DNA from: Siphonodentalium dalli
Taxonomy: Eukaryota > Mollusca > Scaphopoda > Gadilida > Siphonodentaliidae
Length of the DNA stretch: 64,000 nt
Direction of reading: 5' to 3'
Assembly: GCA_032622095.1 (NCBI GenBank)
Contig: CP136065.1
Coordinates: 114,927,195 to 114,991,194 of the forward strand
A program made the position numbers and the translations under genes. This document shows, piece after piece, positions 5,296-53,640 of this stretch. The notes under the pieces are model-generated. The model saw only the letters and a list, made by a program, of their open reading frames with translations, ran no database searches and was not told the origin of the DNA. Within the stretch, counting starts at the first letter, position 1, and every line of letters begins with the position of its first letter.

Positions 5296-5560
5296 TCAGC
5301 CACAGGTCTGTGAATGCAGCTTTAGAGTGTACAATACACCTATCCCTGTATCTGTCATCTTAGATAGGATGTGAATAATCTTTTGTATATTAATAATGGG
5401 GTGGAGGGTATCTACATGCTACAGATTTTTTTCAGTAATCTGGCCACATTAAGATATCTTTCAAATTAAGCCACATCAGAAAAGTAATGAAGCTCAGTGG
5501 AGAGCCAATTTTGCACTTGTTTTTCATTAACTTCTAATAATATGTGACTGTACTTTGTAG

Positions 5561-6339
5561 GGCCCTCAAATGAGGTTGAACTGCCAGAAGAAAAGCAAGA
5601 AGAGCAAGATGAAGCAGAGGAACTGAGTACATTCATGCATGCTAAAGTCAGAGTGTCTAGGCACGGTGATGTGTTTGTAGATGTTGACGAGAATGCATCT
5701 GATGGCGAATATGAGTTTGACGATGATATGTCATCTGATGATGATGGATTCGTGCAGAGATTTACAGGGAAGAAAACAAAGGATGGAGTGAAAGGTGCTG
5801 CTGCTAAGAGAGGGAAGAAAACTAGCCGAACTACACCCAAAAAGAGGAAAAGCACAGTTGACATTGAAAATACTAGTGCTAAAAAGAAGAAAACTGACAA
5901 CAAAGATGTGTCTGCGCTTAAAAAAATAAAGGGTGAAGGCCATATATCAGTTGAAGTGAAAACAAAGAAAGGTGAAACTCAGAAGAAAGGTGTTTCCGCA
6001 AAGCTACAAAATAGAGAACAAGATACCAGTCACAAGAAAGACAATGTGAAAAATAATAAAAAGACAAAGAAGTCATTTGAAGGCAAAAATGTATCAGCTG
6101 AAAATTCCAATGAATTAATCAGTGGTATGTCTGAAAACAACAGTGATGACAGTGTCACAATTAAGAGGATGAAAAGGAAGTTAAAAGGAACCAAAATTAC
6201 ACAAAAGACTGTGAAGAGAAATAAATATGAAAAGGCTTCAAAAACAAAGGCCAATCTGATTAAAAAGAAAGTCAAGTGGAGAAGATGTGACCAAAAATTT
6301 CCATGTTTGGTGACCGACACTGGTCCTGCGGCTGGTTGA
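5561..6339 (+). CDS. RSL1D1: RSL1D1-like gene, last exon: acidic then lysine-rich tail
   Basis: The acceptor is tactttgtag (AG 5559-5560). Two bases complete the glycine codon split from exon B, and the frame then runs 258 codons to TGA at 6337-6339. The start is glutamate-rich (EVELPEEKQEEQDEAEEL), followed by an acidic patch (DGEYEFDDD, SSDDD) and a long lysine/serine/threonine-rich tail with several basic clusters (KKRK, AKKKK, KKKVKWRR) that look like nuclear or nucleolar localisation signals. Human RSL1D1 also ends in a long basic low-complexity tail, so composition and position fit the family, although sequence identity is not expected there. An in-frame ATG at 5635 lies inside the exon and is not the true start. 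Confidence 0.75.
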
Positions 6340-38978: not shown

Positions 38979-39530
38979 TATAAACACGTCTACATTTGGA
39001 CTGGAACGTGTGACCTAACTAAACTTATAGCCGGCGGTTACTCCACAATCAGTGGCCAAAATACAGTCCATCAATTATCTCTACAATACCAAGAACTTTA
39101 CAGAGAAATTAGAAGACACCAAGACTGTAGATTGACTATCCTCGAGACTCCAGCATACTCAATCCCTGACTGGAACAATTACCAATACGACAAGCAGGTA
39201 AGAAAACACCGAGAGAACCCGGCAAGATATCCACCAGCAATACAACCTCCTAATCCAGAAGACCACCAAAACGTACTGACTGAACAAATCAGGCAACTTA
39301 ACATCGAGATTAAGGCAGTCAACCAGTCTCACCATCAAAACTCACCGGAATTCTCATCCGACCTGCGCACGTACAAGAGGCACGTAACAGGACGCGCACA
39401 GCGAAACATCAGGACTGAGACCAGGTACAATTACAAGCTGTACAGAAATGATGGCATCCACCCTGATGAATTACTCAGTGAAGTCTGGCTCCGGAAAATC
39501 AGGAACCAGATACTCAAAGACTGCTGGTAG
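38979..39530 (+). pseudogene. LINE copy 1, ORF1: 5'-truncated SGNH esterase-like protein
   Basis: The open frame of 183 codons starts abruptly in the middle of the domain (YKHVYIWTGTCDLTKL) and ends at TAG 39528-39530; the first ATG in frame is 39132. It aligns with the second half of ORF1 of LINE copy 2 (WTGTCDLT; KITILETPIYSI against RLTILETPAYSI; the shared ending GIHP..LS.VWLRKI). The N-terminal catalytic GDS block is missing because of 5' truncation, as is common for LINEs. SGNH esterase ORF1 proteins are known in CR1-like elements, where they are thought to act on membranes or lipids or to bind RNA complexes. Confidence 0.8.
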
Positions 39531-39540
39531 TAAACAAAAT

Positions 39541-39935
39541 GTGGGTCGGTATGTGCTGAACCATGCTATAACCCATACCAGACAAAAAACACACCAGACC
39601 ACACCATCAGGAGCACTGCGGAGAAAGGGTAGGCATGGGCTGTACCATGCTACACCCTACACACTCCAACTGGCACTGCAGAGAAAGGGTAGGCATGGGC
39701 TGTACCATGCTACACCCTGCACACTCCAACTGGCACTGCAGAGAAAGGGTAGGCATGGGCTGATCTATGCTACACTCTATTCACCCCATTACCAACGGGC
39801 ACTGCAGAGGAAGGGTAGGCATGGGCTGATCCATGCTACACTCTATGCACACCAAAACCAAAAACACCAGGCTCTACACAACAAAGATAAAACAAATGCG
39901 GGTCGGTATGGGCTGAACCATACTATACCCCTAAC
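39541..39935 (+). repeat. Tandem repeat at the ORF1/ORF2 junction of LINE copy 1
   Basis: Four units of about 57-66 bp ('gcactgcagagaaagggtag', 'gcatgggctgtaccatgcta', 'caccct') start near 39617 and are flanked by diverged units ('gggtcggtatgggctgaacc'). The core GGGCTGTACCATGCTACACC also occurs twice in LINE copy 2 (about 52515-52575). The frame stays open (RKGRHGLYHATP units), but it may be untranslated. Confidence 0.9.
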
Positions 39936-40005
39936 AGATAGCCACAAAAGGAGATATGGGAACATAACAACGGCAAAACACATGCGCCTCCTCCTCATCA
40001 TCGCT

Positions 40006-40029
40006 GGCATCGAACAAAACCCGGGGCCC
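40006..40029 (+). other. 2A-like ribosome-skipping motif GIEQNPGP (LINE copy 1)
   Basis: The codons for G-I-E-Q-N-P-G-P directly follow a short hydrophobic leader (M-R-L-L-L-I-I-A). The 2A consensus is D-(V/I)-E-x-N-P-G-P; only the first Asp is replaced by Gly. In 2A peptides the ribosome skips the Gly-Pro bond, releasing the upstream peptide. 2A-like motifs are known at this place in APE-type LINEs of several invertebrates. Confidence 0.8.
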
Positions 40030-43000
40030 AAAAAAGCGAAAAAGAAAGCTCCCACCAAGCAAAAGGAAAAATCAGTATACCCCTGCGGAGTATGTGAAGG
40101 AGAAGTGACATGGACAGTCAACGTAGGAGTATGCTGCGATAGCTGTGATGTTTGGCATCACTACTCGTGCATAGACCTAGACACATCAGAAGTCCAATCA
40201 CTAGAAGAAAGACCCAACAAAGAATGGAAATGCATGAAATGTGACAGCATCAACATCGAGAGCTTCACATTCCATAGCTATGACGTCAGTACCTCCAACT
40301 ACTACCAAACACTAAGCCATCTAGACAGCTCCATCCGAAGTATGAACTCAATTTTCGACCCGACCCATACTAGCAGTCCCAAAGCAGACACAACTCTAGG
40401 CTCAGCATCAAGATCGAACAGATTAGCATCCCAAAATACCTTTAACGCACCAAGGAAAGACAATCTCAGATTGCTAATTGTTAATTGTAGAAGCCTAGTC
40501 AGCAACAAAGCGGAACTGGAAATCGCAACCTCCTACATAAAGCCTGATGTTATCATCGGTACAAAGTCATGGCTAAATGGAAAGAAACCAGGAAAAGAAC
40601 CAGCCCAAAATGCCATCAAGTCAGCTGAAGTCTTTCCTGAAGATTATACTGCCTATAGGAACGACCGAGATACTACGGGTGGAGGAGTCTTCATTGCCAT
40701 TCAACAGGAAGCAGTTGCAATAGAGAAGACAGAATATATCACCAACTGCGAAATTGAATGGATAAAACTGTCAATACAAGGAGGCAAGGATATACACGTG
40801 GGAAGTTTCTACATGGCACATCGATCCAAATCAGATGTAGAAAATCTAGAAAAATCCATCAAAGCACTGATGAAAAAGACTGACTCCAGCTTCATACTTG
40901 GAGGAGACTTTAATTGTCCTGACATCGACTGGGATACAATGACTGTAAGGCCGGGGGCACAAGACCGAGAGATACAGAATGACCTCATCAACATATGTGC
41001 GAAATTAGGACTAAAACAGGTACAGGAGGACCCAACCAGGGAAGGAAACCTACTGGACCTAATCATAACAAACAATCCAGCATTAATAAAATCCACCACT
41101 ACAATACCTGGCATATCAGACCATAATATGATCATTGCTGACTGTTCTCCAACTCCATCCTACAATAAACCAGTACAGAGAACTAGATATCTATTCGACA
41201 AGGCAAATTGGACTGACATAGCTGCAGATGTGGAGAAGATAGCGGTGCAAATAGAAGATTTTCCCACTGATACCAACATCAACACCATGTGGAACTTCTT
41301 TCGCGATTCCATCAAAGAAGTTGTGGAAAAAAGAGTACCAAAAGCACCAAGATGTCGACGCAAACAACTGCCATGGATAAATAGAAGACTCAAATTGCTT
41401 CTAAGGAAAAAAGCAAGATTACACAGGAAAGCTAAAGAAGCAGGATGTTGGAAAGAGTATAAAGACCACCAGAAAAAATGTAGGAGAGAAATGAGGAAAG
41501 CAGAACAAGAACACATAAACACCATAATAAAGAAGGGGAAGGAAAAGAAAACATCAAAACCCTTCTGGAGCTACATGAAGGCCCGAAAACAAGAAAGAAC
41601 AGGTACGCCACCGATAAAAACAGGAACATCACTCACAAACGATGCAAAAGAGAAGGCGGAACTACTAAATAAGCAATTCCAGTCGGTATTCACCGTAGAC
41701 ACTAACGAAGAGTTACCATCCATACCACAAAACAGTGTAAACATCAAACCACTGGAAATCACAGAAGAAGGAATAAAGAAACTCCTGGAAGATATAAAAC
41801 CATCAAAGGCACCAGGTCCAGACAACATCCCTAACAAAGTACTCAAATTACTGGCCAACGTACTGGCGAAACCCATCACCACCATATTCAACAAATCTAT
41901 AGAGACCGGCACCCTTCCAGAAGACTGGCTGAACGGAAACATAACACCAGTTTATAAGAAAGGAGACGTTCACCAACCATCCAACTACAGACCAGTATCA
42001 CTCACTTCAACATGCTGTAAGCTACTAGAGCACGTCCTGTGTAGACATATCCGCGACCACCTGGAACTGCAACCTACTGACTGATAGAAACCACGGATTT
42101 AGATCTGGCCACTCATGTGTAACCCAGCTTGTAAACACCACACAAGATCTACTATCGACCTTTGACTAGGAGAAGCAAACTGACATGGCAATCCTCGACT
42201 TTTCCAAAGCATTTGACACGGTACCACACCAGAGTCTGCTATACAAACTGAAGTCATAAGGAATCACAGGACCAATACACACCTGGCTGACAAGCTTCCT
42301 AACAAAAAGGCATATGAGAGTAGTGTTGGAAGGAGAATCATCCAAAAGTGTTCCAGTGGAATCGGGAGTACCCCAAGGTACGGTACTAGGACCCCTACTA
42401 TTCCTCTGCCACATCAACGACCTTCCACAAGCAGTCAAATCAGAAGTAAGACTCTTTGCTGATGACTGCATACTATACCGCCAGATAAATGACTACCAAG
42501 ACCACATCCAACTACAACAGGATCTGACATCACTAGAAGAATGGGCGAAAACCTGGGGGATGAGATTCAATGCTGGAAAATGCTCCATAATGTCCATGAA
42601 GAACAAGGACAAGAACAAAACATCGTTCATCTACCAGCTTGACCATCAAATTCTGCAATCAGTCAAACAAAGCGTCTACCTTGGACTGACCATCACAGAT
42701 GACCTAAAATGGTCAACGCACATATCCAAGATCACTGGAAGGGCCAATAGCACCTTAGGCTTCCTACGCAGAAACTTACGAAGAGCGGACAGTAAATCCA
42801 GAGAGACCGCATATAGAGCTATGGTAAGAACATCACTCGAATATGGAGCAGAAATATGGGACCCCGCCGCAGTAGGTGAAATAGAGAAGTTAGAGAAAGT
42901 GCAGAGAAGAGCGGCAAGATTCATCACCAACAACTACAGAGACCGGGAAAAAGGCGCAGTAACCAGCATGATTGATGGCCTAAGGTTAGACTCACTAGAG

Positions 43001-43157
43001 ATCCGCAGAAAGATGAAGAGAATAGAACTCTTCGGCAAGGTGGTTGAGGGGATAATCCCAGCCATACACACACATGATTTACTAAAGGATAAGAAAATCC
43101 GAGCAAAAAAGTTTCCAGACCACAAAAGTGATAACATAATTTCGAGCCAAGAGACGA

Positions 43158-43886
43158 GTGTATCAACTCACGATCGTTCGAACCAATAAGAGCCAAATGG
43201 CATTCAATACTGACAAATGTGAAATAATCCACATACATAGGAAAAGGGAACCTATAATCCATGACTACTATCTCCACCATCAGAAACTAAATAGCACAGA
43301 AAAGGCAAAATATCTAGGAATAACCATCTCTAAAGATATGTCATGGAATTCTCACATAAACAACATCACAAACAAAGCCAATGCCTCATTGAGGTTCATC
43401 AGAAGAAACATCAGGACAAATAACCACAAATCAAAAGAACTAGCCTATAAAACATATGTCCGCCCTAAACTGGAATATTGCTCAACCATATGGCATCCAT
43501 GGCAAGCATACCTAAGAGACCAAATAGAAATGGTCCAACACAGAGCAGCCCGGTACACAATGAACATCTACAACTACCCAAGCAGTGCCTCCGATATACT
43601 AAGACAGCTGCAATGGCCTACTCTAGAACAGCGGCGTTTGTACCAATCACTTGTCATGTTCTATAAAATAAAAAACAACATTGTCAACATACGAGACACC
43701 GCTCCCCTCACAACATCGAGAGGTCATAAATTCGTGTTCTTTTATACTGGACCCAAATACATCCGCACCTCATTCTACCCTCGCACTATCCTTGCATGGA
43801 ATTCTCTCGACCCTTCTATTGCTACCCTCACAGACCTGGACAAATTCAAATCTACTCTCTATAGCGACCACTTTAAACTCCCATAA
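43158..43886 (+). pseudogene. Second CR1/L2-like LINE fragment (RT C-terminus) fused to copy 1
   Basis: True homology starts at about 43193 with SQMAFNTDKCEIIHIHRKRE and continues YLGITISKDMSWNSHI, RPKLEYCSTIWHPW, RAARY and LAWNSLDPS to TAA at 43884-43886. These are the thumb and C-terminal motifs of a reverse transcriptase clearly different from that of copy 1, whose own thumb has just ended. The frame is intact over 230 codons. It is followed by a 140-bp 3' UTR and a (TAGA)n tail, as in CR1/L2-type elements, so it is a 5'-truncated insertion or one half of a chimera. Confidence 0.85.
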
Positions 43887-44024
43887 CCAACCTGTACCAA
43901 ATCTGAGTTTTATCATGTTTTTAAATATAATCCAAAATTCACCAAAAATATTGCACAAAAATTGTATAGTTACACCTCATGCGCCTCCTTTAAAACTTCA
44001 GCATAATGAAGGTTAGGAGAAACC

Positions 44025-44050
44025 TATAGATAGATAGATAGATAGATAGA
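44025..44050 (+). repeat. (TAGA)n 3' tail of the LINE fragment
   Basis: About six TAGA units follow 'ggttaggagaaacctatagatag'. CR1/L2-type elements end in short tandem repeats instead of poly(A). Just downstream (about 44058-44110) the sequence again looks like the C-terminal part of copy 1's ORF2 (NKKTIVRNGNATKIV against NKTILDWNQLEDRIV in copy 2), which would fit a nested insertion. Confidence 0.7.
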
Positions 44051-44559
44051 CACGGAACAATATAAACAAGAAAACCATAGTCAGAAATGGTAACGCCACC
44101 AAGATCGTATTATTAGCCATAAATATAAATCATAATATAAAATATATTGGTTACATGAATGGACCGCCTCAGAATTCCGTTAAGATAAGTAATTCTTCAA
44201 ATTATTACAATGAACTACGGCTTATAAATTACTGCAGGTTTCTCATTCGCAACACCAGAATGCTTCTAAATGCGGATCAAAGCTAAGAGTGCGTGGCACA
44301 GCCATTGTTCATAGACATTTTACAGATAGCGAGAATGATGCATGCTGGGAACGAAAGCATCCACAGCAAAGCCATGTGCTTACGGGGGCATGCGTTTATT
44401 ATAGGGGATTTATGGTGGGCCTATAAAACTAATTATAACTTTGTTATCTGTCATAGTTTATGCGTGAAATTTTAAACATATATACCTGGACATCTACCAC
44501 TTCCAGAATGTTGAAAAACATTTTCAGTTGCTCATCGTATTTTTATAGACGAAATAGTC

Positions 44560-45296
44560 CGAAATTCCAGAAAATTGCGCTAACTGCTCAATGTTTTAAT
44601 GTGTTACAAAACGTCTGATAAAAATAGTTCTATCGGGAATATTCACACCATTTTTTTTCAGAGAACATAGTGTAAATATAGTCCTATCGGGATATCGTAA
44701 AGGAGATTAATTAAACCCCTCAGACTGCCGAAACTGACGACATTAAATTCGCTTTTTCGTGTCCCGCGGAAATGAAACTTGTCTGTCCATTGATGACGTT
44801 ATTTATTTGACATAGTATTTTTTTCTTCTGTTGTATTTGAACACTTGTTGCACGCGCAGGCTGCACGATCATAATAACTTCAACCGATAAGCGCCGACTG
44901 ATACCCGCGCAACAGTTTGTCTCAAATAAATTGTTATCAAAACGCAGGTTTATGGCCGCGGACATAAGCCGATTAAGTGTAATGTAATTTATCCATGAAT
45001 TTGACTGAAAAATTGTGATTCTATCACCATTAGCCACGAAAATGGGACCTCTAAACAGGCAAGTTTGATTTTCGGCGGACACGAACAAGCGAATTTATTG
45101 TCGGCAGTTTCGGCAGTCTGAGGGTTAATTAATCCCGAATTAAACGGAACTACTTTACGATAGTCCGATAGGACTATGTTTACTCTATGCATGTTCTCTG
45201 AAAAAATAGTGTGAATATTCCCGATAGAACTCTTTTTATCAGACGTTGTGTAACACCTTAAAACATTGAGCAGTTATAGCGCAAACCGAAATGTGT
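44560..45296. mobile_element. ~740-bp inverted-repeat (foldback) element
   Basis: The left arm about 44562-44795 and right arm about 45050-45296 are inverted copies (shared 'gcgctaactgctcaatgttt', 'acgtctgataaaaatag', 'atagtcctatcggga', 'cagactgccgaaactgacga'). The outer flanks 44115-44200 and 45375-45445 are direct repeats of each other ('taaaatatattggtt', 'ctcagaattccgttaa'), suggesting it sits inside a duplicated or larger element. Confidence 0.75.
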
Positions 45297-45699
45297 TGTC
45301 TTGCAAGATATCCCACCGCTTTAGCTAAATTTACCTTCCTACAATATCCATAAAGAGGATCATATATTATATACCCACGGTTTTAATTATAGAATATAAA
45401 ATATATTGGTTTCGCGAATGACCAACTCAGAATTCCGTTAAAATAACAATAACAACCAGCACCTATAACGAACCGTTTTACTGGACTTGGCCTACTGGTC
45501 GCGTAGTTCCGACTTTTAAATAAACGGAATTTCCAACTCTATAAATAAAAGCCCCACAATGCATTCGCCCTGTCCACCACGCAATATCAAAATCTCAGCA
45601 GCTAGATACACCACAGGTGGCGTAATAAATGCTCTTTATTATTTCCATATCAGGAATACAGTAACAAACAAGACAGCAGTAAAATAAATGGGGACAAAA

Positions 45700-45965
45700 A
45701 GTTAGTGTAATCATGTATGAAATTTCCAACTGTTAAAATTCTTTATAACAGTTGTGACTCCCACCCCCTCAAAATACCTCCATCATTCGATCCCCGTCCC
45801 CATCATAATGGGGACAATAATTACTAGTTGGGATACCAGGCAATGGTAACCATGTATTTTAACCTTTATGTTGTAGTGTAATAATGTATGAAATTTCCAA
45901 CTACATGTGCATTAACTTTTTTTTACAAAAGTTGTGAATCATACACACTCAAAATCTAACTTCCA
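45700..45965. repeat. Imperfect direct duplication (~165-bp spacing)
   Basis: The segment 'gtgtaatcatgtatgaaatttccaac' with 'aacagttgtgactc' reappears as 'gtgtaataatgtatgaaatttccaac' with 'aaaagttgtgaatc' about 165 bp later, each before a CA-rich C tract. Confidence 0.6.
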
Positions 45966-46131
45966 CCCCCACCCCACTACACTGTCCCTTCCACTTAAAA
46001 ACATTCTGGAGATCAAGTTGGCCACAGGTGTTCAGTTATTTTATACCATGACTCCCTATTGTACTGTGTACAAACATGCTATATAATATATTTGTGCTGT
46101 ACACCCTACTGTGTGTGAACAGGAGTCCGAC

Positions 46132-46166
46132 CGTGGGTAACACGTTTCTACTGTGGGTAACACGTT
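46132..46166. repeat. Short direct repeat TGGGTAACACGTTT
   Basis: Two copies lie 19 bp apart. Nothing else was recognised between 45965 and 46800 except AT-rich DNA. Confidence 0.6.
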
Positions 46167-46817
46167 TTAATGGCATTTCAATGGTTAAAGTTTATACCCA
46201 TAGTAGAACTACATCCGAGTTGACCTTTCATTAACCTTCCATGACCTCGATCAAAATCACTCTATTTTTAAAATGTAGCGCCTCGCGATGAAAACAATTT
46301 GATACTTTCGATTCAATTGAATATTATACTCACTAATGCGATAAAAACGAACAGTTATTTCCGTGGAAATCACATCCAGATCAACAAATTGAACATATAT
46401 TTCAAGAAATAGACGTAAAAAACTCGAACAACAAACGGTGGATTTCAAAATGACTTTCGTGGTTTCCTGTTCACTGTACGGCGGAGAAAAAAAAGTTCCC
46501 GCAATGTGTTATATTTATATTCATTAAATTCGTATTCCCATATATATATTCATGTTGTTTATTTATGGCGGTTTCATCATGATTACAGTTTATTGTGAAT
46601 TGGCTACAATGATACCATATTCGTACAATTGAATGTTGACCTAATTCAATGTATCAATACGCCTGATCAGCTGTGATAGTGTACGTCGATGTACGGCCAA
46701 GTGTGGGGAACACAACGGGGATGATTGTGAATGGTGCGACAGAATCATCTTAATTTAAGTGGGTTTATTTCGATTTCATAGCAGTTGTTGCTCCTGTACC
46801 GGTCATGGTATAAACAA

Positions 46818-46959
46818 AATACACACGTAGTGTTTCTGAATACCAAATTTACACCACTCGTGGGATTGATGATTTACCACACTCGCTAAAGCTCGTGTGG
46901 TAAACCATCAATCCCACTCGTGGTGTAAATTTGGTATTCAGAAACACTACGTGTGTATT
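46818..46959. repeat. 142-bp near-perfect inverted repeat (hairpin MITE)
   Basis: The ~67-bp arms AATACACACGTAGTGTTTCT... and their complement are separated by only 'ctaaagct'. The few mismatches are inside the arms (ccactcgtggg against ccacgagtggg). It lies in ANKRD40 intron 1 and would fold strongly in the transcript. Confidence 0.9.
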
Positions 46960-47379
46960 CTATATATACCCCACGTGTCTTGGACTGTTGCCAAATTCAC
47001 AGTGCTCCATTAGAGGGCCTGCTTGGACTGTTGCCAAATTCACAATGTTAACTGCAGAGAGGTTGTATGTTATTGGAGACGTTCTAATATGACAATAGGC
47101 TGGCCTAATTAACGAACCATGCACAGCTAAATACACACAAGCAACTTGTAATCTTCAAATAGATACAATTGTCGGCCTCCAAAATTCAATATACTTTCTT
47201 ATATACAAACAAACATTGAACTCATACCATTGTTTCACTTAACCAAAATAGCGAATTTCCCCAAAAGAACGCATATAGACTGCGCATGCAGAAAATAAAA
47301 GATGGCCGTTACTACAAAAAAAAACAGACATGCGCACTCCAATTAAAATTACCCATAATTCAGTTCACTACACCAGGGG

Positions 47380-47855
47380 CTCCCAACAGGTTATACAATG
47401 TTTTCAGGCTATCAGATTATTTATATTTTCGACTTTAAGTTTACAATTTGAGCCTGTCCTCACTCTATCGATACGATTTATCATAAACATATTATACACC
47501 AGTGGCGTTAACTTTACAACTTCGGCATCTACGTGATTATATCGGTACGATTCAGTAAGGTACAAACAATCTCCATAAAATACAGCAGGGGCTCCCAATA
47601 GGTTATTCCCATTTATTATGGGCTCCCAATAGGTTATACAATATTTTCAGGCTATCAGATTATTTATATTTTCAACAACATATTATTACACGGTGACTTT
47701 AAGTTTACAATTTGAGCCTGTCCTGACTCTATCGATAGGATTTATCATATTTTCATAAACGTATTATACACCGCTGGCGTTAACTTTACAATTTCGGCAT
47801 CTACGTGATTATATCGGTACGATTGAGTAAGGTACAAACAATCTCCAAGAATACA
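47380..47855. repeat. Tandem duplication, two ~235-bp units
   Basis: Both units run 'ggctcccaayaggttataca', 'ttttcaggctatcagattat', 'aagtttacaatttgagcctg', 'tcctgactctatcgata', 'ggcatctacgtgattatatc' and 'aaggtacaaacaatctcca'. The second has two small insertions. The 3' flank 'cgccctgt.ccacgc.atat' and 'caccaca.ggtggcgtaa' also occurs at 45560-45635. Confidence 0.85.
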
Positions 47856-48142
47856 TTCGCCCTGTACTCCATGCGATATAAAAAAAACCAAATGCTAGTA
47901 ACACCACACTAGGTGGCGTAACAATCATTCTTCGTGAGAACGATCAGAGACTGGAACAGTATAGAAGATTACGCATGCTCGGGGAATACAACAGGAGAAA
48001 CACCAGAGTAGTAGCAACGACGCGACAACAGCCGAGAGGCTCCTGCGCCGGAAAAATACAGATAGGCCTACACTACAGATGATAAAATTTTGGAAAAATT
48101 GGGTCCACAAACTTGTGACAAAGCCCTTAACTTTGAACGTAC

Positions 48143-48270
48143 CACCCATTAATTTTGTTCTGGGAATTCAAATTAACACTTTGACATTCAATGAGTCTTC
48201 TTATGTTATCTAGATCTCCAATACATGCTGCTTCACGTAACCGCTCTTCAAGTTCAGAAACGTCATTCAT
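48143..48270 (-). CDS. ANKRD40: ANKRD40-like gene, exon 1: start codon and first ankyrin repeat
   Basis: The ATG at 48270-48268 gives MNDVSELEERLREAACIGDL then DNIRRLIE... to NSQNKINGW. Human ANKRD40 begins MNALLEQKEQQERLREAAAL and reaches NSQNEVNGW at the same place, so this start is preferred over an in-frame ATG at 48381, whose extra residues look untranslated. The exon ends at 48143 in phase 2 (TG of the Trp codon) before donor GGTACGTT. An AG at 48301-48300 (tattttttag) could be the acceptor of a 5' UTR exon. The four exons together encode 251 residues: ankyrin repeats, a short linker and the conserved C-terminal domain. Confidence 0.93.
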
Positions 48271-48298
48271 TCTCTTGTTTCGTTTTTCGTGGGTGGAG

Positions 48299-48731
48299 AC
48301 TAAAAAATAGAATTCAGTCCCCTGAATTAACTCTACAAAATATGAGGTGGAAGTGGAACAACTAAAAACCGGAAAGGCCAATATAACCGAACCGGCTATT
48401 TTCGCACTTAATTGGGGGGGAGGGGGTGCTGTTCCCTTTGTCCTACAAAAACAAACACCTGTTCAGTGATAATTAATCACAAAAAAATATATAAATCATA
48501 TTAATTAAATTATATTAAATAGTAAGTAGAATAAAAGAAATAGCAACTTAATAAAACTTAGAAAAACTATTTTATTTTATATATAAAAATCTACAAATAC
48601 ACATCTTAAATAATTATAAAGGGATAAAGATTTCCAATCAATTCTAATCAACTGCCACAGATCATAAATCAAATGGATAATAAAACACTGATTAAACTCA
48701 TCAACAACTCCACTAATCCACCCTAGGTGTG
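48299..48731 (-). promoter_or_regulatory. ANKRD40 5' flank, narrowed by LINE copy 2
   Basis: Only about 460 bp separate the ANKRD40 ATG from the 3' end of LINE copy 2, on the same strand. The interval is AT-rich with one G tract (ggggggagggggtg at about 48414). No TATA box or initiator could be assigned with confidence. If a 5' UTR exon exists, it may lie beyond the LINE. Confidence 0.3.
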
Positions 48732-48818
48732 AGGGACTTGCTGCATTTACCAGGGACTTGCTGCATTTTACCGGGGACTTGCTGCATATCCAGGGACTTG
48801 CTGCGTATAGTAGGGACC
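48732..48818 (-). repeat. Tandem repeat in the 3' UTR of LINE copy 2
   Basis: Four 18-22-bp units 'agggacttgctgcatttacc' on the + strand. Position relative to the ORF2 stop marks them as the 3' end of the element. Short tandem 3' ends are usual for CR1-like LINEs. Copy 1 lacks this region. Confidence 0.7.
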
Positions 48819-48849
48819 CGTGGGTTCAGTGCAGTAACCAATTCTGGTT

Positions 48850-51800
48850 TTAGGCGCACTGGGTGGAGGATGATGTTGGTTCCGTCGAGGACTCTGATGG
48901 TGCTGTGTCCTCAGGTTCAGTGATTCCATCGTTGCGGAGTGCCCGTAAGAATAACTCTGGATCACTGTTGCACACGATCCGGTCTTCCAGTTGGTTCCAA
49001 TCCAGGATCGTCTTGTTAAAGAAAGAATGTTTTAATTGATTACAGCTGGCACGCCGTGGCTCGAAGGCTCTTACATGTTTACATTCTTCTTTTTCGACGA
49101 TGTTTGTTGTCACACAGTCAACAAATTTTTTGGCTGTGATCTTCCTGCCTGATTTCTTAGGCGTTAGGTAGTTGTTTTCACTTAATGCTGGCACCATCCC
49201 CTCAACTATCTTATGGAACTGGATGAGACGCTGTTCTCTACGTCGCTCGTCTAGAGGTTTTAGATCTAGTTCCTCAAGCATGGTGGTGACTGATGTTCCT
49301 TGGCGACTATAATTATTCTTTATGAATCTCGCGCTCCTTCGCTGTACTTTTTCAAGGTGGTCAATGTCTTTCTTTAAGTGGGGGTCCCATACCACTGCTC
49401 CATATTCGAGCGCCGATCTTACTGTAGCGATGTAAGCTGTCTTTTTACATTTCTCTGGAGCATGTCTGGTGTTACGTCTTAGGAGGCCTAAAGCACAGTT
49501 TGCTTTCTATGTTGTCTTCCTAATATGGGCGGACCATGTCAGGTCGTTGGTAAAGGTCAGTCCCAGGTATGGGGTCTCAGCTGTTGTCTCTAGTATGTGT
49601 TCTCCCAGTTGGTACACGTATGATGATTTGTTTTTGGTGCTCATGATGTTACATTTTTTGGAGTTGAAACGCATACCCCAGTTTTCAGCCCAGTCTTCAA
49701 GCTTCTTTCGATCTTTTTGGAGTATGTGGTGGTCTTTCTGTGAGGTGATGTTTCTGTATAGCAGGCAGTCATCTGCGAACAGTCTCGCCTGGGAATCTAC
49801 ACATGTTGGTGGGTCGTTTATATGTATCAGGAACAGGAGTGGACCTAATACTTTGCCTTGGGGGACTCCTGAATCAACTGGGACATATGATGAGTAGCTT
49901 CCTTCAACAACTACTCGCATTCGTCTTTTGGTTAGGAATGATGAGAGCCAGGTGTATATATTTCCTTTAATTCCATAGTTTTGAACTTTCTGTAGTAGTT
50001 TGTTGTGCGGTACAGTGTCAAAGGCTTTTGAGAAGTCAAGTATTGCTATATCTGTTTGGATGTCTTTGTTGAAGGATTGGAGCAGGTCATCTGATGTTGT
50101 TAGTAGCTGTGTTACGCATGAGTAGCCTTTCCTGAATCCATGATTTAATTTGGTCAGGACTTCATGTTTGTCAAGATGGTTCAGCAGGTGACGGCATATA
50201 ATATGCTCCAGTATTTTTCAGCATACTGTTGTTAAGGAAACTGGTCGGTAGTTTTCCGGTTTGTGGACGTCCCCCTTCTTACATACCGGAGCAACGTTTG
50301 CGTCCCTCCAGTCTTGTGGTAGTTCTCCTGTGGTGATCGATTTGTGGAAAATATAGGTCAGGCCTGGAGCGATGGAATTGGCACATTTTTTCAGGACTTG
50401 ATTTGGAAGGGCATCTGGTCCGCTAGCTTTGCCGGGTTTTAAGTCCCTAAGTAGCTTTTCCACATCTTCAACTGATATGTTCAGGTCTGCTATGGTTGGT
50501 TTGTCAGATGGGAGTGGTGCTTTGGTGGTATTTGTCTTCTTGGTGAATACAGAGCGGAACTGGGTGTTTAAGAGTTCTGCTTTCGTGACAGGGTCATTTG
50601 TGAGGTTTCCTTGGTGTTTCATTGGCGCTATCCCGATGTTGTCCCGCTTCCTGGATTTCAGATAATTCCAGAATGGCTTTGTGTTCTTATTTGCCAGCCC
50701 CTCTTCAATGACTCTGTTTACATGGGTCCACTCTGCTCTTCTCATTTCTCGCCTACATGTTTTCTGGTGTGCCTTATACTCTCCCCATTGGTTGGTCCTC
50801 TTTGCTTTTTTGAAGAGTCTCCCTTTTTTCTTCAGTATCCGGATAAGGCGCTTGTTTAGCCATGGCACGTGGTTGTCTCTTCTCTTTGGTGCCGATGGTA
50901 TATGTTTATCTATCAGGCCCTTTATACCATCTCTGAAGGTCTCCCAAATGGTGTTGATTTTGGGATTTCCAGGTATTGTTCTAATTTCTTCAGAGAGGAA
51001 CCTAAGATCTAGTGATAGGTTAGTCCAGTCAGCCCGGTTGTAGGCGAAGCGTTTCTTTTGTTGTTTTTGTGGTTTTGCATACGGTGTTATCTGGCAGTCA
51101 GTGACTATGATGTCGTGGTCCGATATTCCAGGTATGTTGTTTGAGTTCTTTATTAATGAGGTGTTGTTTGTTAGAACTATATCGAGCAGGTTGTTTTCCC
51201 TTGTGGGCTGTCTGTGGGTTTGAGTCAGACCTTTGCGGATACACAGGTCAAGTAATGCTTGTTGGATCTCAGTATCCTGTGCCCCTGTTGTTACACAAAG
51301 TTTATCCCAGTCGATATTTGGGCAGTTGAAGTCGCCGCTTAATATGATGTCTTTATACCTTCTATCTTGTATGGTATTGAGAGATTCCTCTAGCTGTTTG
51401 ATGTCTTCTAGGTTTCTGTGGGCCATATAAAAAGATCCGATGTATAGGTTTTTTTTATTTGATGTTGTTATTGATGCCCATTCCAGTTCGCAGTTTGTGA
51501 TCAGATCAAGTTGTTCGATAGCTACAATATTTTCATGCGTAGCAATGAAGACACCGCCCCATCTCGAGCCACGATCATTCCTCAGTGCATTATAGCTTGG
51601 TGGGAAAACTTCTGCCGAGTTTATAGCATCATTTGCTCTTGGTTTACCAGGTTGTATACCTTTAAGCCATGATTCAGTGTCAATGATTATGTCTGGCTTT
51701 GTGTATTCAATGACTGCTGCTAATTCTGCTCGGTTTTTCTGTACGCTAGCTCCTGCAGTTTACCGTCAAAAAGCAGAGGTTCTCCTTCTCCCGCAGTTTA

Positions 51801-52594
51801 TAGAGGCTTGGGACTGATTCGTTTGTTGTGTCCATTTTTTGTGAGCCTGGTGTATTTGTGCCGATCTCTCTGTCATTGTTTTTTGTAACAGGGCTGCTTG
51901 TATGTAATGGGTCGAATGCTGCAGATGTTGTGGTTTCCATGGTTGACTCCAGGCAGCTTGTGGGATAGTAGAGTACAGTTGAGTTAAATTCATAGTTATG
52001 AAAGGTGAAACTATCTACGTTGAGGCTGTCACATCTACAGCAGAACCATTTGATACTGGTGTCTTGGAGGTTTTTGAATTCTTCAGAGCAGAGCTCGAGA
52101 CATGACCCATGGTACCATAGATCACAGTTATCACAACATACTGCTTTTGCATCCCATCCGACTTCTAGCTCGCACGAGCCACATGGGTATATAGATGGTT
52201 CTTGCCTCTTCGGGCCTGGGTTTTGTTCCACTCCGGCAATTAATAGCAGTAGTAAGATGATGAGTCCTGATCTTCTCCTGCCCATGTTTTTGGTGTTGCA
52301 ATTTACCATGTCTGATTTCTTCTGGTATTTTAACCGGTGTGTTTGGATGCAGTGGTAGTCAGCGATTTGGGTGTTGCTTATTGGTGTTGATAGGCTGACT
52401 TTATTGAAGAAAGCTATGGAGGCTATGACCATTAGGAGTGGTAGCAGGCTCATGCCTATTCTGTTTCTGTTTCTTCTCCTTTGGTGTATTTGGATATATA
52501 ATGGTTCCAGATCAGTATAGCGTGGTATAGCCCACACAGCCTGATCTCCTGGTATAGCGCGGTCTAGCCCACACCTCCCAGGTAGGGAAACCAT
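48850..52594 (-). pseudogene. LINE copy 2, ORF2: 2A-like leader, PHD, endonuclease, reverse transcriptase (CR1-like)
   Basis: The conceptual frame starts at ATG 52594, two bases after the ORF1 stop. It holds repeat-derived codons, a hydrophobic run (MSLLPLLMVIASIAFF), a second ATG at 52285 with leader MGRRRSGLIILLLLLIAGVE and 2A-like end, a PHD finger (52031-52183), APE endonuclease (TESW Glu at 51673-51675, GDFN 51325-51336, SDH 51115-51123), RT (KPGKASGPDALP, PENYRPVSLT, FADD at 49768-49779) and a C-terminal thumb ending at 48850. Lesions are a frameshift near 51744 and stops at 50218-50220 (TGA) and 49507-49509 (TAG). All endonuclease catalytic residues I can recognise are kept. The complete family protein is about 1,100-1,250 residues. 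Confidence 0.93.
52211..52234 (-). other. 2A-like ribosome-skipping motif GVEQNPGP (LINE copy 2)
   Basis: It follows a leader with a run of 10 aliphatic residues that looks like a signal peptide core and precedes KRQEPSIYPCG at the PHD finger. The motif differs from copy 1 only by Val for Ile and keeps EQNPGP, while the residues around it have diverged, which suggests selection on the motif. Confidence 0.8.
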
Positions 52595-52595
52595 T

Positions 52596-53405
52596 CTATT
52601 GCCGCCAACAGTCCAAAGCGATGCGGTTTGTTATCTTCCGCAGCCAGACTTTGCTGAGTGTTTTTGCAGGGTGGATTCCGTCTAGCGTTGTGCTGAAACA
52701 GTACTTGTGGTAAGTTATTCTGTGGTTTGGACCTCCTTGGCTTGCATTATGTTTTGAGGATCTTGACAAGTCACAAGAAAATTAAGGTGAACGTGTACCA
52801 ATGCTGTTGTTCAGGTCCGTTACTGCTTTGTTCAAGTCCCTGATGGTGCTTGTCAGTTGGTCGTCTTGATTTCCGATGTTTGGAATGGTCGGCACGTGAT
52901 GGTATCTCCTTGGTTGGGTTTGATGCCTTTTGATGGCTTTACTTCTCACAGCTTTGTTCCACTCTGTTATTGAGTAGATAGGCGTTTCGAGGATGGTGAT
53001 TTTATCCTCGGTTTTGCGATATCCCTTCACAGTGGAGATTACTCGCTTGTAGCGGTCTACCATGCGCTGTGTTGTTATGTCTCTGTTCAGGGATGAGAAG
53101 TTTTGTTTGTCGATTTGTGTCAGATCGCAGGTACCTGTCCACAGATAGTAATGGATTGGGTGAGACTTTGATGTTTTGACAATATCCCTGATGTTGTCTT
53201 TGAGCCAGCTATGGCTATCGTTGGTGTTTCTTCCTCCCTTTGGGTACCAGGTGATGGCAGAGTCGACCTTGTGATCAGGATTTTTCTCTTGTTTCAAGTA
53301 TCTTGCTTTACTATCTCCGATTATGACTGGAGTATGTGTTTGCCTCCCTCTGGGGCGGATTTTTTCTGTGCGGTCAAGATACTTCTGCAGCTTTGCGGCA
53401 GACAT
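52596..53405 (-). pseudogene. LINE copy 2, ORF1: SGNH/GDSL esterase-like protein with one nonsense mutation
   Basis: The ATG at 53405 opens a 207-codon frame ending at TAA 52784-52782. The same frame then continues (FSCDLSRSSKHNASQ ... GIHPAKTLSKVWLRKI) to TAG at 52598-52596. Copy 1 has Glu at the TAA position (SPEFSSDL), so the intact ORF1 is about 269 residues. SGNH block I is IIGDSKARY (Ser at residue 32); block II may be GGRNTND (57-63); block III is WTGTCDLT (89-96), in which the usual GxND Asn is not obvious. ORF1 ends in TAG-A-ATG with the possible ORF2 start, a spacing seen in termination-reinitiation. Confidence 0.85.
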
Positions 53406-53571
53406 CAGGTGTTTTTCTGACAGTTTTCTTTTTAAGAATAGTATGTTGGGGTACGTGCCAGTTTTCTCACTAAGAGCAAAATGTCAGCTCAATTTGTATC
53501 AAAAAGTTCAAGATTTCGTGCAATTCTGGATTCAGGAATGTTTTCATTATATGATCGATGTGCAATTTTGT

Positions 53572-53640
53572 TGGAACGCATGATGAGACCAATCATTGAA
53601 TATTGCAACACTGTATGGAACTCTCATTTGAAATATAATT
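53572..53640 (+). pseudogene. Short reverse transcriptase relic
   Basis: The + frame reads LLERMMRPIIEYCNTVWNSH, matching the LVRPHLEYCNTVWNPH motif of jockey/CR1-type reverse transcriptases. It lies just upstream of the 5' end of LINE copy 2, in the opposite orientation, and belongs to a different insertion. Confidence 0.65.

Follow-up and report, generated by a model that had tools for sequence, protein, structure and literature searches.

A StopGo/2A core behind a conserved leader near the start of ORF2 in CR1-like LINEs of Siphonodentalium dalli

StopGo, or 2A-like, motifs are not new to LINEs. Odon and colleagues reportedly found in 2013 2A-like StopGo cores in LINEs of the CR1, L2, Crack, Rex1 and Ingi clades, and Heras and colleagues are said to have described in 2006 a 2A-like sequence of L1Tc. 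The excerpts of PMC12846837 define the core as (D/G/C/N)(V/I)ExNPGP. They state that Gly is as frequent as Asp at the first of these positions in RNA viruses, mention D12G variants confirmed to be functional, report activity for natural sequences with His at the Glu or Asn position, and call StopGo rare in cellular genes. They also describe an L-rich upstream class, motif 5, which ends with (A/G/S)G at p12 and lies outside the four motifs that were assayed there (1, 3, 4 and 6). Work in cells on artificial polyproteins that carry N-terminal signal sequences showed the 2A reaction to be inhibited by some of the sequences placed upstream of it (excerpts of PMC2978324). The non-LTR element SART1 is reported to reinitiate translation, with an RNA structure downstream of the stop-start site (excerpts of PMC5972666).

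The window analysed here is a stretch of 64,000 nucleotides of the S. dalli genome, and it carries two diverged LINE copies with such a motif in ORF2 (Table 1). In copy 1 the frame at 39982-40029 (+) reads MRLLLIIAGIEQNPGP, that is MRLLLIIA-GIEQNPGP. In copy 2, on the minus strand, the frame reads MVNCNTKNMGRRRSGLIILLLLLIAGVEQNPGPKRQEPS, with LIILLLLLIA directly before GVEQNPGP. Both cores agree with the published definition (PMC12846837, in excerpt), and the StopGo/2A motif is genuine at both copies. The residues in front of them, LLIIAG in copy 1 and LLLIAG in copy 2, are L-rich, end with (A/G/S)G and fit motif 5, as judged by eye against the excerpted text of PMC12846837 rather than with the motif matrix. 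The frame readings bear out the initial annotation in placing the same StopGo motif upstream of PHD, endonuclease and reverse transcriptase (RT) in two diverged copies. The annotation had also held that Gly in place of Asp leaves activity an open question; as a general doubt this is lifted by the excerpts of PMC12846837, where Gly is a known active variant.

We propose that ORF2 of these CR1-like LINEs is a two-product frame, consisting of a leader, a StopGo site and then the PHD-EN-RT enzyme, and give this reading a probability of roughly 0.68. The ribosome would make the leader, release it at G/D-(V/I)-E-x-N-P-G|P and continue, and the enzyme would start with Pro regardless of the sequence upstream.

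Table 1. Positions of the features of the two LINE copies in the window
Feature	Position	Strand	Remark
Copy 1 ORF2 open frame, stop to stop; PHD and endonuclease	39388..42084	+	
Nearest upstream in-frame AUG in most readable family A copies	39466..39468	+	Inside ORF1 end
Copy 1 ORF1 stop and spacer, in-phase array of six hairpins	39528..39981	+	2A frame open throughout
Copy 1 hairpins found by pattern	39549, 39633, 39693, 39819, 39906	+	Sixth, diverged, near 39753
Copy 1 ATG and hydrophobic tract MRLLLIIA	39982..40005	+	ATG private by family alignment
Copy 1 StopGo/2A core GIEQNPGP	40006..40029	+	Frame reading and family alignment
Copy 1 PHD finger	40084..40242	+	Pfam PHD E 4.8e-05, 23.7 bits, cut-off 24
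Copy 2 PHD finger	52031..52183	-	Pfam PHD E 0.00066, 20.1 bits, cut-off 24
Copy 2 StopGo/2A core GVEQNPGP	52211..52234	-	Frame reading and family alignment
Copy 2 last 14 residues upstream of core, RRSGLIILLLLLIA	52235..52276	-	
Copy 2 upstream signal-like segment MSLLPLLMVIASIAFF	52406..52453	-	73 residues upstream of core
Copy 2 three-way-junction RNA	52492..52598	-	ORF1 stop 52596-52598, ORF2-frame AUG 52592-52594
Copy 2 ORF1 part	52782..53483	-	Ended by in-frame stop absent from sibling L042

Both copies have the endonuclease of an APE-type LINE, found with the Pfam family Exo_endo_phos_2 (E 3.4e-13 in copy 1, 2.1e-11 in copy 2), and RVT_1 was found in a second frame of copy 1 (E 1.3e-16), the RT domain starting from 42260. 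In copy 2 the endonuclease lies in a further frame than the core and PHD. Copy 1 is interrupted in ORF2, and copy 2 is broken in both ORF1 and ORF2. Directly after the core, copy 1 has the basic stretch KKAKKKAPTKQKEK and then the PHD finger; copy 2 reads LIILLLLLIAGVEQNPGP upstream of its PHD on the minus strand. The basic linker annotated behind the core is clear in copy 1 and short in copy 2, and a probable PHD finger follows in both, below the Pfam cut-off each time. A tree of 23 PHD rows starred 3 of 20 inner branches and did not resolve the placement of copy 1. In families A and I (40030-40070, +; L092) the post-skip enzyme would start Lys-rich, with PKKAKKK or PKKKAK, which is nuclear-signal-like. 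For the ORF1 part of copy 2, neither Pfam (E 0.1) nor PDB (E 1) gave a match; it is esterase-like by eye only.

Relatives were searched with the DNA downstream of each motif, the motif itself being excluded from the query. Family A (copy 1) gave at least 42 match rows, with 40 of 58 candidates scored, and family B (copy 2) gave 21, the window copy included in each. We fetched 33 family A and 18 family B loci; the remaining rows (8 and 2) start far from the motif or duplicate a place. A separate protein search, with the leader, core and PHD of family E as query, gave at least 151 matches, 150 of 1301 candidates being scored, many of them in open frames of 900-1300 residues. Forty of these matches were fetched without regard to their core.

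In the whole genome (2.2 Gb, nine contigs), G(V/I)ExNPGP occurs at 84 places and D(V/I)ExNPGP at 645, together 729. The reversed-pattern controls gave 0 and 1, so the core is not a product of chance. D-type cores with His or Gln replacing Asn add 181 places, 89 for D(V/I)ExHPGP (control 2) and 92 for D(V/I)ExQPGP (control 1), and DVSLNPGP-type DNA occurs at 12 (control 0). The sampled D- and G-type cores lie mostly within LINE frames, as judged by eye. By the same judgement, 18 of 20 fetched H- and Q-type loci show a LINE-like frame and a hydrophobic or Leu-rich stretch upstream of the core; at L169 and L179 such a frame or stretch was not seen, or the sequence ends early. All 40 loci of the protein search have Asp at the Asp position. 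The core ends with NPGP in 31, HPGP in 6, QPGP in 2 and NPGQ in 1, and the Glu position is occupied by Glu in 27, Ser in 7, Gln in 4 and His in 2; altered cores are therefore present in 9 of 40 relatives by loss of NPGP and in 13 of 40 by loss of Glu. Some LINE families whose core carries His or Gln at the Asn position, or Ser, Gln or His at the Glu position, have long open frames (L121-L160, L161-L180).

In the proposed two-product frame, ribosomes would enter near the ORF1 stop. In the copy 2 lineage, entry would probably proceed by termination-reinitiation at TAG-N-ATG, with structured RNA downstream. The AUG follows the ORF1 stop after one base, as TAG-A-ATG, in 13 of the 15 covered family B copies, and as TAG-C-ATG in 4 of 4 family E and 1 of 2 family J loci. 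Stop and start are thus adjacent in family B and its two sister families, E and J, which is not the case in family A, and in all three an RNA structure lies downstream of the stop. This structure, a three-way junction, has fold z values of -5.02 for the window copy of family B (106 nt), -4.15 for E and -4.75 for J (107 nt each). Across 8 distinct rows, 96.3% of the cells are paired, compared with 31-42% when the rows are slid, and none of 500 shuffles reached as high in cells paired or in score. Five pairs are changed on both sides, from two deep lineages; neither this number, matched by 357 of 500 shuffles, nor that of further pair types (499 of 500) is unusual. The structure was taken from an E sequence. 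The junction model matches copy 2 with 115.9 bits, the window copy being one of its 8 sequences, and one closing pair is broken there. Among 37 sources the full form was found only at B, E and J loci, mostly training rows, and single hairpins in A and I; matches occur on both strands, weaker on the reverse. Since the SART1 structure also lies downstream of its stop-start site (excerpts of PMC5972666), the B/E/J junction may be the same kind of device.

Copy 1 carries an array of hairpins between the ORF1 stop and the core. Each consists of GYRYGG-GCTNNN-CCRYRC and a variable outer stem. With at most one mismatch, this pattern matches 7 places in the window, five in copy 1 and two in copy 2, where 0.01 are expected. 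Across families A, B, E, J and I, 59 distinct hairpins were compared at their third inner pair: 36 have A-T, 15 have G-C, and the other 8 are G-T or unpaired there. The pairing is partly built in, because the selection pattern demands at least 4 of 6 pairs. All 9 neighbour spacings in A (window) and I (L080) are multiples of three, and families B and E have two hairpins, 37 apart. Fold support is modest for the A spacer (39528-39940, z -2.12, 2 of 100 shuffles as good) and an I hairpin (z -2.03); the first A hairpin is better supported (z -3.14). A search of 39000-53600 against Rfam, with E of at most 1, matched none of the hairpins.

Between the ORF1 stop and the core, the A, B and E representatives and one of two I loci have an uninterrupted 2A frame, and 3-10 stops in the other frames; mononucleotide-shuffled spacers stay open at a frequency of at most 0.0055. 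In L005 (A) and L092 (I) the other two frames have 7 or 8 stops. The J representative and the I locus L080 have one 2A-frame stop each. Of 12 family A copies with both the ORF1 stop and the core, 7 are stop-free, and 6 of these 7 have no in-frame AUG between the two. In the copy 1 spacer itself, the sole in-frame AUG is the private ATG. Family A (L001-L032) is young, with long open ORF2 frames.

A second, signal-like segment starts about 63-86 residues upstream of the core in copy 2 and many relatives. Copy 1 has no such segment, the hairpin array taking up its spacer. In L042, the sibling of copy 2, it is preceded by Met at -73 and has P 0.0245 against shuffles; in families B, E and J a Met at -71 to -73 is followed by the hydrophobic segment. 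An in-frame Met between -66 and -90 is present in 16 of 18 leaders and is the first Met of the open frame in 8. The 31 loci sampled for this segment, like the 36 sampled for the tract next to the core, were chosen by eye, one per apparent family, and several are related. Hydropathy was scanned with Kyte-Doolittle values, and signal-like refers to these scans. The segment was significant against shuffles in 12 of 23 testable loci, the other 8 of the 31 being too short. In 31 of the 40 loci from the protein search, many of them siblings, a segment with KD15 of at least 1.4 starts 63-76 residues upstream of the core; 5 have a weaker segment, and in 4 the open frame is too short.

The B, E and J leaders align over 117-118 codons with at most two one-codon gaps, with whole-leader dN/dS of 0.48-0.57. 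The hairpin part reaches 0.80 (B/E), 0.77 (B/J) and 0.38 (E/J), a weak protein constraint, and the PHD side gives 0.085 in E/J, the only pair computable. Two other sets of pairs gave leader values of 0.11-0.62 and 0.35-0.68 where synonymous sites are unsaturated. The dN/dS values here and below carry no significance test, and many pairs are saturated. Judged from the gap-poor codon alignment and from dN/dS below 1 in every computable pair, the leader is translated. In many families it would itself be a small conserved protein that begins with a signal-like segment and ends in a hydrophobic one.

Six leader rows have (S/T)W(Y/E)xQQ in common. An HMM of these rows, built without tract and core, matched 24 of 145 leaders with E of at most 0.011, 18 of them below 1e-20; these counts include training rows and siblings. 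Among 725 shuffled leaders the lowest E was 0.2. The motif itself, derived from these same families, occurs in 17 of 145 leaders, against a shuffle mean of 0.00. The HMM does not recover the B, E, J, A or I leaders. Of seven leaders compared with Pfam, five had no match and the best of the others had E 0.011, under its cut-off. A PHD-less LINE group (L082, L095, L097-L099, L161-L163, L166, L167, L175) has a conserved QYR-x-x-(I/V)G start about 45-55 residues upstream of the 2A core.

What the leader does is a question of its own. In the broad PHD-LINE group, ORF2 might start with a small membrane protein that is freed by StopGo and acts as a membrane-sensing switch on the amount of free enzyme; this extension of the two-product frame is possible, and we hold it to be doubtful. 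It would draw on the signal-like start, the (S/T)W(Y/E)xQQ core in several families and the hydrophobic C-terminal tail. SRP could meet the upstream segment of the copy 2 type, because this segment leaves the tunnel before the skip site is reached, and SRP or the translocon could then hold the ribosome at the membrane and damp the 2A reaction. A membrane-coupled leader is possible by analogy, given the 2A inhibition by upstream sequences (PMC2978324) and the liposome-binding LINE ORF1 esterase (PMC3905857), both sources being taken in excerpt.

Alternatively, the leader may be functionless, the tract serving only as tunnel context and the rest being a translated spacer that is then discarded. 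The fixed position of the tract beside the core would suit this, as would family A, whose representative L005 has StopGo without a significant upstream hydrophobic segment (P 0.34). The weak segment of family I (KD15 1.35, P 0.0065), the 11 of 23 tested loci without significance and the weakly constrained hairpin part point the same way. However, leader dN/dS below 1 in all computable pairs, the HMM matches beyond the best shuffle, training rows and siblings included, and the recurrence of (S/T)W(Y/E)xQQ, albeit in the families that gave the motif, argue against it, and we consider a leader of no function unlikely.

Returning to the two-product frame, its hydrophobic tract would primarily be the exit-tunnel context that StopGo requires. 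A hydrophobic stretch adjoining the core was annotated in both copies and is indeed found in most of the 36 sampled loci. Across these loci the mean hydropathy exceeds 1 from -3 through -14; at -15, a position often occupied by K, R, N or Q, it is down to -1.1. Position -5 is Leu or Ile in 35 of 35 readable rows. The tract is weak in L103 and L104, short in copy 1 (LLLIIA), and about 20 residues long in other loci. Because its position next to the core is fixed, the tract points to an exit-tunnel role, and its length suggests room for more.

The ATG beside the tract is another matter. At the copy 1 codon, 27 of 34 family A loci are readable, with CTG in 20, ATG in 2 (the window copy and L012), CTA in 2, ATA in 2 and AAA in 1. 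The tract-adjacent ATG of copy 2 (52285, -) is Met in 14 of 16 readable family B copies, and families E, J, D and I have no Met beside the tract. The tract-side ATG is thus private or family-specific, and the shared part is tract plus core. The ATG as part of the leader design, as the initial annotation had it, was rejected at 2 of 27 readable family A copies, and with families E and J having no Met there.

These data bear on the proposal that the leader is a signal sequence, that skipping gives a cytosolic or nuclear PHD-EN-RT and its failure sends the protein to the secretory route, and that the element uses this partition. A sea-urchin NLR 2A leader behaves in this way in HeLa cells, with about 80% skipping in vitro (excerpts of PMC4981915), and the likeness seen to it holds as far as a hydrophobic leader lies directly upstream of the StopGo core in both. 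The tract profile is also signal-peptide-like, with basic or polar residues at -15, a hydrophobic run and then small residues, and the family C leader MKIHQFLLGIILAILLVRAG has in its representative a Met 19 residues upstream of the core. The sea-urchin leader stands at the very N-terminus, whereas the copy 1 Met is private and the copy 2 frame and its Mets continue upstream; in many of the families sampled, moreover, at least 45 residues of open frame precede the tract, and the annotated reading of it as an N-terminal signal peptide that sets dual targeting finds no support. The tract would also still be inside the exit tunnel when skipping happens, so only unskipped chains could present it to SRP. 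We know of no use for a secreted LINE enzyme, which also counts against the proposal. Copy 1 lends no support to dual targeting by its own leader, and for the elements at large we regard such targeting as improbable.

The core is well retained within the two families. Counting the window copies, 22 of 34 loci in family A and 14 of 19 in family B have an intact core, so that the loss of NPGP from most copies, named beforehand as grounds for giving up the motif, was not seen. Most loci that lack an intact core are diverged or truncated. Of the 22 intact family A loci, two diverged ones, L022 and L028, have D for G. Within-family conservation was rejected as proof because many copies of both families are 95-99% alike, and codons were compared between families in its place. 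Of the 12 distinct between-family pairs that were computable (8 codons each), 11 have a core dN/dS of 0.00-0.37, including 0.07, 0.14 and 0.06 in the B/E/J pairs; the twelfth, L121/L127, gives 1.17, and the L107/L111 cores differ by one replacement and zero silent changes. These two pairs and the altered cores of the relatives imply that skipping may be weak or lost in places. That the motif is a mere relic, once active and now neutral in these copies, is very improbable: the broken frames of both copies and the 8 substituted cores among diverged family A copies would fit, whereas the many near-identical copies, the core kept in family A copies at least 96% alike that were fetched with the region, and open frames of up to 1306 aa (one A locus) and 1258 aa (B loci) speak against it.

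Several other features were seen in the window. An open frame at 43140-43886, LINE-like by eye, lies downstream of the broken copy 1, with an ATAG repeat also within 43140-44050. Nested inverted repeats at 44581-45276, with arms of 76 nt (95% complementary), 70 nt (89%) and 40 nt (88%), are likely a foldback element. A near-perfect hairpin at 46807-46970 has two 81-nt arms, 90% complementary and 2 nt apart, with weak Rfam miRNA matches far under the gathering score. A Lys-rich open frame of 263 residues occupies 5548-6339 (+).

For a device described as rare among cellular genes (PMC12846837, in excerpt), StopGo is represented in this one genome by 729 D- and G-type and 181 His/Gln cores. Families with natural Asn-to-His or Asn-to-Gln changes could serve directly as tests of the ribosome-tunnel model. 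Should the leader prove to be a membrane peptide, it would tie in with the role at membranes proposed for LINE ORF1 esterases, and the production of LINE enzymes separately from ORF1 could be tested directly.

Compared with the 2A-like APE-type LINEs reported by Odon and colleagues (2013), the present elements are alike in having a StopGo core within a LINE. They appear to differ in being two-ORF elements with the core near the ORF2 start and a conserved leader upstream, and in having core variants with His or Gln for Asn. Among the literature matches listed, at the level of titles and abstract openings and with Odon 2013 and Kojima 2005 outside this scope, no such LINE leader or junction was described. 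In the esterase/PHD LINEs, a PHD probably lies at the ORF2 beginning in L2 subgroup 5, as here, and PMC4120745 does not contain '2A-like', 'hydrophobic', 'peptide' or 'transmembrane'; the ORF1 esterase of ZfL2-1 binds phospholipids and liposomes (excerpts of PMC3905857).

The classes of Li et al. (2026; PMC12846837, in excerpt) share with these cores p12 = G and the L-rich residues ending (A/G/S)G of motif 5. Here, in contrast, mean hydropathy is high over 12 residues, where their viral logo is non-random over six. The variants flagged in those excerpts do not include the p16 = Q (Gln for Asn), p14 = S (Ser for Glu) and p13 = L families found here. SpNLR2A (Roulston et al., 2016; excerpts of PMC4981915) resembles the present leaders in its hydrophobic sequence directly upstream of the core. 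There, however, it is a 26-residue N-terminal sequence of an immune receptor, whereas many families here have an internal tract, with the signal-like part about 70 residues upstream. SART1 (Kojima et al., 2005, as told in excerpts of PMC5972666) likewise has a stop and a start that nearly touch and an RNA structure downstream; it uses UAAUG, unlike the TAG-N-ATG found here, in which both codons lie inside the closing stem of the three-way junction. StopGo in LINEs is thus a known device in a new setting, with a conserved leader, natural core variants and structured ORF1-ORF2 junctions.
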